DNA of 21,073 bases from a virus: the IMG/VR virus record IMGVR_UViG_3300023301_000140, positions 1-21,073 of that record. The stretch is one strand, 5' to 3'. Shown here one piece after another: positions 4,523 through 9,500 of this stretch. Each line of letters opens with the position of its first letter. The first letter of the stretch is position 1. The position numbers were made by a program, and so were the translations under genes. The notes beneath the pieces were generated by a model that searched no databases, had not been told where the DNA came from, and saw only the letters and a list, made by a program, of their open reading frames with translations.

Positions 4523-4699
4523 ATGACAGAAGAAGAAATTAAAACAGCCTTTTTTGAAGCCTTGTTAGAAAGGGGAGTTGGAAAAAAATTAGGAGTTACC
4601 AGGTATGTAGTTTATAATTATCGCAACCGCGAAACCAATACAGCCAAAATGCTGGAAGTACTTTGGAAACTCGATAAATTAGAACTCAAAATAGAATGA
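4523..4699 (+). CDS. Small helix-turn-helix protein
   Basis: A 58-residue protein that is little more than one DNA-binding-type helical domain. Residues about 17-45 read VGKKLGVTRYVVYNYRN and on, the layout of a helix, a tight turn, and a recognition helix seen in XRE-like and other HTH folds (K-K-L-G-V-T-x-x-x-V-Y-N-Y-R). ATG 4523 was chosen because the longer frame from 4475 would overlap the promoter and the previous gene. The stop overlaps the next start (ATGA). A lone HTH gene inside a virion operon, right behind an operator-like inverted repeat, suggests a local regulator, perhaps of itself and the genes after it. It could also be a minor structural protein that happens to use the fold. 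Confidence 0.6.
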   Translation: MTEEEIKTAFFEALLERGVGKKLGVTRYVVYNYRNRETNTAKMLEVLWKLDKLELKIE

Positions 4700-5133: not shown

Positions 5134-5169
5134 TTAAAAAAAGCAGTCCTCCCCAAGGCTGTTTTTTTT
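5134..5169 (+). terminator. Rho-independent terminator
   Basis: An A-tract and CAGTCCT (5144-5150) pair with AGG-CTG and a run of eight T (5162-5169), leaving a CCCC loop at 5151-5154. The stem has one G-T pair and one mismatch but is extended by A-T pairs from the flanking tracts. It would end the upstream virion operon or a short transcript started near 5108. Confidence 0.7.
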
Positions 5170-5209
5170 GTTTTTGCATCTTGTTCTCTAATCGAAAATT
5201 TAAATTTAA

Positions 5210-5377
5210 ATGAAAAATTTTTTAGAAGAGATAGAAATGCTCGACTCCAAGGAAAACCAATTAAAAACTTTAGACAATCTTTTAGAAGTGTATTTAAGCA
5301 GCTCTGCCGCCAACCACCAGGAAGAACGTATTGATACTATGGTGTTAATAGGTAAATTAAGAGAGCTCCTCCTTTAA
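5210..5377 (+). CDS. Small acidic helical protein, 55 residues
   Basis: An ATG at 5210 opens a 55-residue frame (MKNFLEEIEM ... RELLL) between two terminators. The composition is protein-like, with regularly spaced leucines and a predicted helix throughout (QLKTLDNLLEVYLS, then VLIGKLRELLL), so a short coiled coil or helical hairpin is likely. The AT-rich stretch AATTTAAATTTAA lies just before the start; there is no Shine-Dalgarno. It is followed after seven bases by a strong terminator, so it seems to be a single-gene unit. I do not recognise it. A small phage-encoded interaction protein is plausible; nothing more can be claimed. Confidence 0.55.
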   Translation: MKNFLEEIEMLDSKENQLKTLDNLLEVYLSSSAANHQEERIDTMVLIGKLRELLL

Positions 5378-5384
5378 AATTCCC

Positions 5385-5412
5385 AGCAGCGCCCTACCGC
5401 TGCTTTTTTTTT
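5385..5412 (+). terminator. Strong rho-independent terminator
   Basis: AGCAGCG (5385-5391), loop CCCTAC, CGCTGCT (5398-5404): a perfect 7-bp stem followed by a T run of eight (5405-5412). It directly follows the 55-residue gene and separates it from the lipoprotein gene. Confidence 0.9.
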
Positions 5413-5825: not shown

Positions 5826-5842
5826 ACGTATGATTTACATTT

Positions 5843-5873
5843 TTGGTAGAATCAATGCCCTTCTCTATATTTG
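5843..5873 (+). promoter_or_regulatory. Second promoter upstream of the structured leader
   Basis: TTG at 5843-5845 and TATATTTG at 5866-5873, separated by 20 bp, match the Bacteroidetes/Flavobacteria promoter consensus on both elements. Transcription should start at about 5878-5880, which is the beginning of the first copy of the repeated arm of the candidate RNA. No palindromic operator overlaps this one. Confidence 0.6.
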
Positions 5874-5876
5874 TTG

Positions 5877-6043
5877 TGCAGAATAACACAAAGTACAATG
5901 ATCACAAAGAAGTTTAATAATTCATCCCAGGAGAGAACCGGTGTAAGTCCGGCCACTTCAATAGCTTTGCTGTTGTTCTGCACCACTCCTGGGTATATTA
6001 AAACTATTTGTTATGCAGAACAACAGCAAAGAGGCGAAAGCCC
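5877..6043 (+). ncRNA. Candidate structured leader RNA with competing helices
   Basis: The arm CTTTGCTGTTGTTCTGCA (5965-5982) is a perfect 18-base complement of 6014-6031, which contains most of the start codon at 6013-6015. It is also a near-complement of 5877-5893 (one G-U pair and one bulge), at the predicted 5' end of the transcript. The two pairings exclude each other. CCCAGGAG (5926-5933) pairs perfectly with CTCCTGGG (5986-5993) and would be pseudoknotted with either helix. Inside it is a CCGG hairpin (5938-5952), and right after the last arm a GGC-GAAA-GCC hairpin (6033-6042). This suggests a leader that hides or frees the start codon. A 72-codon frame from ATG 5898 to 6116 also runs through it, so a translated regulator is possible. 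I cannot match it to a known RNA class. Confidence 0.5.
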
Positions 6044-6321
6044 ACAAAAATCAACGTACCAAAATTATGGTATTTATCGGCAACTGGGCGGGAGAGATGT
6101 TTTCCCACGCCCATAACCTTGAAGATCAATTAGAACTTTTAATAATCCTGCGCCGGGTGTATTTAGATTCCAGCTGGGCAGACAATCGTGAAGAACGCCG
6201 CAATGTTATTTGGCTTTTCGATGAATTAGAGGAACTCTTTAATGGTCTTAATAAATACGGTAAGGATGATTTTAATGGTTTAGATCATTGGATTTTAGAA
6301 CAAACCAAAATTGCTTCCTAA
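6013..6321 (+). CDS. Small acidic protein before the tape measure gene, function unknown
   Basis: A 102-residue protein. After a basic N-terminus (KEAKAHKNQRTK) comes a helical core rich in Leu, Glu and Trp (EDQLELLIILRRVYLD, NVIWLFDELEELFNGL). ATG 6013 lies inside the inverted-repeat arm of the preceding leader. The next in-frame ATG, 6067, would give an 84-residue protein starting MVFIGNWAGEMF and free of that structure, so the true start is uncertain. Its stop overlaps the next start (TAATG). Genes directly before the tape measure are often tail assembly chaperones, and size and acidity would allow that, but it has no recognised motif. It could equally be cargo belonging to the small-gene island. 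Confidence 0.6.
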   Translation: MQNNSKEAKAHKNQRTKIMVFIGNWAGEMFSHAHNLEDQLELLIILRRVYLDSSWADNREERRNVIWLFDELEELFNGLNKYGKDDFNGLDHWILEQTKIAS

Positions 6322-6482
6322 TGTATTACCGCAATTTAAAAGACCTGGTATCTATAGAAGGTATCGAGGTGGAAGCCGGTAGTTTATGGAAACACGAACA
6401 AGAAGACAATCTTCTTGTTTTGATAGATGAAGATCAATACGCCAGTACCCAACTGGACGAAGATTCCTTTATTGATGAGTAA
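6321..6482 (+). CDS. Small acidic protein, 53 residues
   Basis: ATG 6321 overlaps the previous stop (TAATG), giving a 53-residue, very acidic protein (MYYRNLKDLVSIEGIEVEAG ... DEDSFIDE). The alternating pattern suggests a small beta-rich domain in which a loop of the type EGIEVEAGSLW leads into a strand, LLVLIDED. An alternative TTG start at 6288 would overlap the previous gene and is less likely. It is followed after 23 bases by a terminator hairpin, so it ends a two-gene unit. It may act with the 102-residue protein. No family recognised. Confidence 0.55.
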   Translation: MYYRNLKDLVSIEGIEVEAGSLWKHEQEDNLLVLIDEDQYASTQLDEDSFIDE

Positions 6483-6505: not shown

Positions 6506-6531
6506 GCCCCTGCAATTGTAGGGGCTTTTTT
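6506..6531 (+). terminator. Rho-independent terminator
   Basis: GCCCCT (6506-6511) pairs with AGGGGC (6520-6525), with an extra G-T pair and a CAATTG loop, then six T (6526-6531). It separates the two small acidic genes from the tape measure gene, which therefore needs its own promoter or readthrough. Confidence 0.85.
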
Positions 6532-6586: not shown

Positions 6587-9500
6587 ATGGCCAAGCGAAT
6601 TGTTGATGAAGAAATGCGTTTTTCTGTTGTTATTAATGGCAACGAAGCGCAAAAAGAATTGTTCGATTTAGAAAAATCTACCCGGCAACTTACCCAACGC
6701 AATAAAGAATTAAAACAAGAGAAGCGACAGCTTGCTAACGCGGGAAAAAAAGAATCGGCACAATATAAAGCGCTGGATAAAGAATTGCGACAAAATAATC
6801 GCACTCTTAAAGAAAAAAAGGCCAGAATGAACGCACTCCAAAAAGAAATTGGAGTTACGGGTCTTACTATGAACCAACTGAGCAAAAGGGCTTCCAAGCT
6901 TAGGTTGCAATTACATAATATGGTGCCTGGAAGCGCCCAGTACAAACGCTATAGCGCAGAACTAAAAGGGATAGATTCCAGGCTAAAAGAGCTTAGGCTG
7001 AATGCCAGGGCTACAAGATCTTCAATTGGTAGGGTTGCCGATGGTTTTAATAGATATGCGGCTTTGGGTGCTTCGGTTATCGCTACGGGTACCGGGATGG
7101 TGCTTTCCCTTCAAAAGGTACTAGACTATAACTCAAAATTGTCAGATTCTCAAGCCGATGTAATGAAGACCACGGGCTTAACAAAAGACGAAGTAGATGA
7201 ACTTACTAAATCTTTTGGAATGTTTACCACCAGGTCTGCCCGGTCAGAATTATTAAAGCTGGCGGAAGATGCGGGTAGATTGGGAATTACCGGAGTTAAA
7301 AATTTAAACGATTATGTAAAAGTAGCGAACCAGGTAAAAGTAGCCCTTGGGGATGATCTTTCAGACGAAGCTATTCGGGAAGTAGGGAAAATGACCAAGG
7401 TTTTTGAGGTGGGCGAACAAACCGGGCGCGATTATGCCGGTGCTTTAATGTCTGTTGGTTCCGCAATTAACGAAGTTTCAGCAAGTGGGGCTAACCAGGC
7501 TAATTATCTGGTCAATTTTATGAAGCGTACCGGCGGTATAGCCAAGGTGGTAGATATTTCTGCCGATAAGATTATAGGTTTGGGAGCTGCTTTCGATGAA
7601 ATGGGGGTTTCTCAAGAAATTGCTGCCACTGCGGCAAGCAAGACGCTTGCTGCAATGTATGAAGATGTGGATGCTTTTGCCACTGCCGCACAAATTCCCG
7701 TAGATGATTTCAGAAAAATGATGGAAGAAGATGCCAATGAGGCATTTATTGCTTTCGTAAAGAGTTTTTCAGATTCCACGGTGGGCGCTGAAGAATTAAT
7801 AAAACGCTTAAGCGGTGTTGAAATTGGTGGCGAACGTGGCGCACGTGCTATTTTATCTTTGGCTCAGGGAATTGATGTGGTAAGAAAAAGACAAAAAACA
7901 GCTGCGGAAGCTTTACAGGAGGCTACTTCTTTAACCGAAGAATACAACGTAAAAAACAATAACCTTGCGGCTACTTTACAAAAAGTTCAAAAAAGACTGA
8001 TAGGCCTTGTTTCTTCAGAATCTATAGTGAATTGGCTTAAATCTGGTGTAGAATGGTTTGCCAAATTTATAGGAGCATCAGAGGATGCTACCGGAGAAGT
8101 CACTATTTGGCGAAGTAGATTATTGGCCGTAGTTAAAGTTATGGCCGTAGTTCTCGCTGCCGTACTTTCTTATAATGCGGCACTTAAACTTAGTGCCTTA
8201 TGGACTGCCAGGGCTAGTGCTGTGACTAAAATTCATTATGCATTGCTACTGGCTCAAGAAATAGCAACAAAATCTCTGGCTATTGCCAAGGCACTTTTAA
8301 CCGGGAACATAAAAAAAGCGGTGCTGGCCTATAGGGCATTAACGGCAGCAATGGCGCTAAATCCCATTGGCGCAGCGTTAGCTATAGTAGGAGCTGCTGT
8401 TGCTGCTTATTATGCTTTTTCAGAAAGTGCTGAAGAAGCCGCAAGTAAACAAAGTTTGTTAAGTGATGCTAGCAAGAAGGTAGCAAGTGATCTTGCTTCA
8501 GAAAAAAATGAAGTAGAAGCTCTAATTGCTGTTTCGCGTGATGAAACTGCTAGCCGTGGAGCTAGACTAGTAGCGATAAGAAAACTAAATAAAATTTCTC
8601 CGGAATATCTAGGGAACCTTAACCTGGAGAATATTGCCACTAAAGAAGGTAAAACAGCTTTAAAGGATTATACAGCTGCGCTGGAGCAGGCATCCCGGGC
8701 TAAAGCACTTAAGGCAATGCTAGATGAGAAATCCCGAGAACTGTTAGATAAAGAAAATTCAAGTTTAGAGGATAATATTGATTTTTGGGATAAGGCCTGG
8801 GCTACTATCAAAGGAGGCTTTAATCCTGTTTCTACCCAAAATAATCTTATTGAAAAAGCCATTTTGAGTAAGCGGGAAAATGTGGAAGCAACCAAAGCCG
8901 AGATAAAAATACTCAAAGAGCTGTACGCAGAGCAAATGAAAGAAAGTGCTCCTGCAGGTGGTGAAACTCCAGGCCCTAAAGAAGGTGATACTCAAGAAAT
9001 AAACGGCAAATGGTTTGTTTATAAAAATGGCAAATGGCAAAGACAGAAAATAACTCCAGATTCAGACGATCCCGAAACCGATAAACCCGGAGGGAACAAG
9101 TATAGTGCAAATGCCGAGAATGAGAAAAAAGCTTTACGGCAAATACAACAAGAAAACAATAGGCTAAAAGCTTCTTTAATTGATGATTCCTTCAAACGGG
9201 AAGTAGCGCAGCTGGAAGCCAATCACGAGGCGAAGTTAACGAAGCTGCGTGAGCAAATGATTGAGGAAGCACAATTACAAAACCTCGATGTAGAAATAGA
9301 TAAAGCGCGTGCCGGTGGCGATAATAAAAGAGCTGCCGAGCTTTCTAAAGTGAAAGAACTTTGGCTACAGCAAAATGCAGAGCTCAACCAACAAATTCAG
9401 CACGAAGAAGCTATCCATCAAAATAAGCTAGGCAGCATTATTCAAAAAGGCCTTGAAGACCAGGCTCAAAAAAGACAGCAAGAATTTGAGCGTGAGAAAA

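Follow-up and report, generated by a model that had tools for sequence, protein, structure and literature searches.

What kind of regulatory RNA precedes the small gene that begins at position 6,013 of this viral DNA? The window (the whole stretch analysed, 21,073 nucleotides) had been described from its letters as carrying a leader with two mutually exclusive helices, one of them hiding a start codon, in the layout of a two-state switch. The pairing at the centre of this sequence-only reading was confirmed, as arm B is a perfect complement of arm A' over the start codon (Table 1). With 18 bases, this is the longest inverted repeat in the window (arms within 150 nt), and in 200 order-2 Markov shuffles the longest repeat averaged 11.0 and reached 16 at most. 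The repeat is real and beyond chance. Arm B, also described as a near-complement of the 5' end of the transcript, does pair with arm A, with a duplex energy of -23.5 kcal/mol vs -31.0 kcal/mol for B/A'. Folding of the nascent RNA (5878-6008) gave A/B and folding of the full leader gave B/A', favoured by 6.5 kcal/mol. The 8-bp helix outside these arms matched exactly and is pseudoknotted with A/B and likewise with B/A'. The GNRA-type hairpin (GGC-GAAA-GCC) noted after the last arm is present at 6033-6042, but it is not general among homologues. A possible extra helix (5911-5919 with 5996-6005) would lengthen the outer stem, reaching into the AU-rich spacer that precedes the start codon, and similar complementarity was spotted by eye in three other leaders (L003, L006, and L017).

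Table 1 Features of the leader and its putative transcription unit, in window coordinates
Feature	Coordinates	Strand	Details
Bacteroidota-type promoter TTTG-N20-TATATTTG	5842..5873	+	TTTG at 5842-5845, 20-nt spacer, TATATTTG at 5866-5873; exact pattern, sole match in the window, 0.24 expected
Arm A	5878..5893	+	Copy of the target, starting at predicted +1; corresponds to P1 a1/b1; partner is arm B
Outer stem, 5' strand	5926..5933	+	Like stem P1 of C4; 8/8 pairs kept in 5 sequences, 4 pairs doubly changed
Hairpin 1	5938..5952	+	CCGG-UGUAAGU-CCGG; T-loop-like (UGNAA)
Hairpin 2	5959..5975	+	CAAUAGC-UUU-GCUGUUG; like stem P3 of C4; overlaps arm B; forms when the isolated core is folded (MFE)
Arm B	5965..5982	+	Antisense arm; equivalent of C4 a'/b'; 18/18 complement of 6014-6031
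Outer stem, 3' strand	5986..5993	+	Partner of 5926-5933
ORF1	6013..6321	+	102 aa; candidate regulated gene; predicted helical bundle
Arm A'	6014..6031	+	Target over UG of AUG and the next ORF1 codons; equivalent of a2/b2
ORF2	6321..6482	+	Start overlaps ORF1 stop (TAATG); relatives keep it immediately before the tape-measure gene
Intrinsic terminator	6506..6525	+	8 pairs, 6 of them G-C, T tail; closes the leader-ORF1-ORF2 unit

The sequence-only reading had transcription start at the first arm copy from a consensus promoter. The start is still predicted there, and the promoter is better read as the Bacteroidota type than as a sigma-70 consensus. In F. psychrophilum, the TAnnTTTG box sits at -12 to -5 (PMC9723704), so that arm A would open with the predicted +1 (5878). 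Across 20 leaders of this layout the box lies 4 nt from +1 in 18 cases and 5 nt in two, and arm A starts with a G that matches the G of AUG. A terminator was found ahead of the tape-measure gene in nine of the ten loci checked. From the promoter and the terminator we infer that the leader would be co-transcribed with ORF1, and the overlap of the two ORFs makes it probable that ORF2 is translationally coupled to ORF1. Having its own promoter, overlapping ORFs, and its own terminator, the unit appears to be a self-contained, moron-like cassette. The contig encodes an integrase and an HTH repressor-like protein, suggesting that the phage is probably temperate. Elsewhere in the window, a small ORF at 5210-5377 with 38% identity to ORF1 (MAFFT alignment) resembles another moron-like unit, with an intrinsic terminator on either side (5135-5170 and 5385-5404).

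A homologue of ORF1 in L006 is 45% identical and has the same start position. The AF2 model of ORF1 (mean pLDDT 81) had no match in a viral fold library at E<=0.001, and ORF1 as the sole bait recovered no relatives from the genome contigs, viral contigs, or phages searched. Neither ORF1 nor ORF2 was recognisable as an antirepressor using PHROGs and Pfam. We considered a tail assembly chaperone, given the position just upstream of the tape-measure gene, and rejected it: PHROGs, Pfam, and the fold search did not support it, and the terminator between these ORFs and the tape-measure gene also opposes it.

Folding of 5919-6000 alone produced the outer stem enclosing two hairpins, which the earlier reading had missed. 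The window core is 68 nt long and has three stems in its MFE structure. Across the 20 cores folded (67-87 nt), the MFE folds consisted of an outer stem around two hairpins, with few exceptions. Hairpin 1 is retained in the five closest sequences, and in L062 it has a UAGG/CCUA stem with the identical loop. An equivalent of hairpin 2 is present in most homologous cores, with differing sequences. Arm B is a single continuous stretch, located partly in hairpin 2 and partly single-stranded, with no separate a' and b' segments. Its 3' end (UUCUGCA), the complement of the start codon region, is single-stranded in the core fold.

The tape-measure protein of the window shares ~40% identity with its counterparts in Duneviridae Flavobacterium phages. 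These relatives have an equivalent layout upstream of the tape-measure gene, with other arm sequences, and related phages carry the leader between the homologue of the gene at 4696 and the tape-measure gene. A DNA pattern for the core (GAACCGGTGNAAGTCCGG), blind to the arms, identified five further phage contigs (L003, L006, L014, L015, and L017), all with the three-arm layout and with different arm sequences. The same pattern had 12 matches in genome contigs, none with the arm layout. We also scanned for a promoter box, an arm, an inverted arm, and a start codon. This search had no hit when 1.16 Mb of shuffled sequence was scanned, and its hits are ascertained because six matching bases are demanded.

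Positions 2-7 of A/B and A'/B were 100% paired at 20 loci, vs 55% after shuffling (0/2000), with the loci non-independent in that several are close Unahavirus relatives. A cleaner but small set for covariation, namely the window plus the five loci that the core pattern identified, was 100% paired vs 58% when shuffled (2/2000). In alignment A1, which covers A/B, the outer stem, and hairpin 1, all cells were paired and nine pairs were doubly changed (0/500 shuffles), vs 31-51% paired in the slid controls. MAFFT misaligned hairpin 2 in the nested-core alignment. The arms covary by compensatory changes, G-U pairs among them, and always in register with the predicted +1 and the G of AUG. A' was present at the downstream start codon, and covarying, at the 20 loci. 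The sequence-only reading had asked whether arms diverge among homologues without compensation; instead, all three arms change together.

The R1 and R2 models, run over Bacteroidota and Flavobacteriaceae genomes, had convincing matches in one genome only (G257), and the weak R2 matches L064-L066 were without arms. L062 and L059 were found using a model that includes the A/B pairs. L062 and L063 are at contig ends, so the absence of A' in L063 is uninformative. In Daejeonella lutea (L039, near 7056-7075, minus strand), the T-loop hairpin sequence GCGAACCGGTGGAAGTCCGG occurs in a different setting: GGATATTTTTGA is repeated on its flanks, and a start-codon arm is absent.

The A/B duplex energy is fairly uniform among the leaders (mean -24.0, sd 2.4 kcal/mol) and that of A'/B ranges from -31.0 to -7.7 kcal/mol. 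In window-type leaders A'/B is the stronger duplex, whereas in c4-2-type leaders A/B is much stronger. Because this order is reversed between groups, a single switching rule may not fit all leaders, and the balance between action in cis and in trans may differ.

The genes that start at arm A' include AntA (L015) and Bro-N (L034), both antirepressor-type, and a SymE toxin (L062). Scanning of 30 Flavobacterium symE loci revealed the layout in five (L069, L070, L071, L076, and L092). L092 is the same locus as L062, and the other four have another core. The leaders of these four (L069:1203-1410, L070, L071:1176-1390, and L076) share a different conserved core, GCGGTTTTGGTACC...CCGTGTGG...GCGCCCAC... 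It is possible that these three-arm leaders of symE represent a new leader-encoded type I-like antitoxin. In phage laban6-1 (L026:1835-2068), the annotated and possibly spurious CDS gp010 overlies the leader RNA. At arm A', that phage has a 15-aa ORF overlapping gp009, an ORF2 homologue, which suggests coupling as in P1 icd-ant. The contig of L015 (L060:2915-2996) has a match to RT-17 RNA (RF03020) at 38.5 bits, just below the cut-off of 40.4.

Of the two-state switch proposed for this leader, the exclusive pairings and the hidden start are supported by folding and by the three-arm covariation. The riboswitch sense of the term is not. A ligand-sensing riboswitch would use the outer stem and the T-loop hairpin as an aptamer, with a bound metabolite stabilising A/B and freeing the start codon. 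The conserved T-loop hairpin (CCGG-UGNAAGU-CCGG) and the two exclusive helices agree with this, but neither the window nor its close homologues matched an Rfam riboswitch, and the core is swapped under an equivalent arm layout, with GGAAAC or GUGA hairpins in L022, L024, and L027-L034 and another core before symE. With the cores exchanged in this way, the homologues share no one ligand site. The downstream genes also speak against a riboswitch, as antirepressors, toxins, and small phage proteins were found and none is metabolic. We therefore consider a riboswitch improbable. Nothing indicates a sensed ligand, so the better fit is an antisense RNA whose target is present twice. The hairpin, which is T-loop-like and preceded by GAA, presumably resembles the P4 hairpin of cobalamin riboswitches. 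The rest of that fold is absent, and there is neither an Rfam match nor a B12-related gene; since the core is also unconserved across the layout, a cobalamin-like riboswitch was rejected. An HDV-like ribozyme topology, considered by eye, was likewise rejected: the first helix of such a ribozyme is expected to be short and A/B is far too long, and no Rfam ribozyme matched.

A protein could also select the helix, if the ORF1 product or another phage protein bound the pseudoknot. A structured pseudoknot with a conserved hairpin could serve as a binding site, and the rather uniform A/B energy is in line with this. The same layout, however, precedes unrelated proteins (Bro-N, AntA, SymE, ORF1, and ORF2 homologues), which speaks against control by the gene's own product and is compatible with a host RNA-binding protein. 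In our assessment such an autoregulatory or protein-binding leader is unlikely. Least credible is that the three copies are a DNA-level feature, such as the footprint of a mobile element or a recombination or invertible site. Two direct copies and one inverted copy do resemble a duplicated site, and the module sits before different genes. Against this, the arm changes are compensatory, include G-U pairs, and keep register with +1 and AUG, the intervening stems covary, and no sizeable open frame that could encode a transposase or invertase lies between 5768 and 6587.

We conclude that the leader is most likely a divergent C4-type antisense system of a temperate flavophage. Transcription would begin at 5878, placing target copy A at the extreme 5' end, followed by the C4-like core carrying arm B and then by the true target A' over the ORF1 start. 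Pairing of B with A would leave the start codon free and pairing of B with A' would cover it, with the outer stem compatible with either pairing as a pseudoknot. On the emerging RNA, A/B would form first and ORF1 would be open. Later, B may shift to A', shutting ORF1 and the coupled ORF2. Alternatively, a processed core may close other copies of the message in trans. The predicted outcome is that expression is limited to a pulse and that incoming phages with the same target are silenced, as C4 does for P1 icd/ant. We hypothesize that arm A is a decoy that silences B until the 5' end is removed. More tentatively, and as a possibility that we would not yet favour, this may be a widespread Bacteroidota module, each transcript of which encodes both an antisense arm and, exactly at +1, a decoy target for it. 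In such a module, A would silence B in cis for as long as the 5' end has not been removed by processing, so that each message would yield protein in a timed pulse, followed by a trans-acting immunity or antitoxin RNA. The module would be swapped among antirepressor, toxin, and moron-like genes, with interchangeable cores.

These findings suggest that C4-type antisense control, described so far chiefly in enterobacterial phages, evolves fast and is a general module in phages of Bacteroidota as well as on Flavobacterium SymE toxin genes, with a reach exceeding what Rfam detects. Three-way arm covariation offers a sequence-independent means of finding such systems and a way to predict mutual gene silencing among prophages. 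With the proposed decoy at +1, the question of cis-versus-trans timing becomes directly testable.

The known system that the leader most resembles is the C4 RNA of phages P1 and P7. C4 forms three stem-loops and is processed by RNase P, which cleaves at the 5' end of the first stem. Its a' and b' segments bind the targets, with b' partly blocking the ribosome-binding site, and both its processing and its action in trans are known (PMC5320573). The annotated order of P1 immI is a1/b1 sites, C4 RNA, a2/b2 sites, icd, and ant, and Rfam detected both C4 and c4-a1b1 in the P1 genome. Like P1/P7 C4 (RF01695) with a1b1 (RF03163), the window has a 5' target copy, then an antisense RNA with an outer stem and two hairpins, then a second target at the translation start of the next gene, followed by an overlapping gene, in a probably temperate phage. 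Three traits of the C4 clan are present, namely a compact three-stem RNA (68 nt vs about 77), an antisense segment for a downstream start, and a target copy at the predicted 5' end. Control of an antirepressor operon is a further trait of the clan; antirepressor-type genes follow the leader in L015 (AntA) and L034 (Bro-N), and none was recognisable in the window. Unlike C4, it has a single uninterrupted 18-nt antisense arm in place of two distinct segments (a' and b'), and its target covers the AUG rather than lying upstream of it. Its target copy begins at the predicted +1, a T-loop hairpin replaces UUCG, and the target gene encodes a small protein without known relatives. Since Shine-Dalgarno sequences are absent from Bacteroidota mRNAs (PMC7366714), a target that covers the AUG is a natural counterpart of the C4 target.

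The window had no C4, c4-2, or c4-a1b1 match in Rfam even at E<=10, and its close relatives had no C4-type match at E<=5. In contrast, the syntenic leaders of the Duneviridae phages 1H and 23T, which have an equivalent promoter, arm, and start-codon layout, matched c4-2 RNA (RF02944) at 49.4 bits vs a cut-off of 41. Thus, the earlier statement that the leader could not be matched to a named RNA class is superseded by its likeness, in layout and three-stem core, to phage C4 antisense RNAs. The c4-2 core sequence differs (AUGG, GGAAAC hairpin), and A'/B in 1H and 23T is just ~8 bp, unlike in the window. Because it fails the Rfam models and has no separate a' and b', we call the window leader C4-like and not a member of RF01695 or RF02944. 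Among chromosomal c4-2 RNAs of Flavobacteriaceae, upstream and start-codon target copies were found in nine of the 12 loci examined. One Flavobacteriaceae genome has two tandem c4-2 RNAs ~180 bases apart (L101/L110; G257 C11:576468-576722). The symE leaders recall SymR/SymE of E. coli in that an antisense RNA would control the SymE toxin. They differ in that the antisense arm lies within the leader of the same transcript, whereas SymR is encoded opposite symE (PMC1891008). Taken together, the syntenic c4-2 matches, the P1-like order, and the covariation of the arms indicate that the leader probably functions as C4 does, as an antisense RNA whose target is duplicated.
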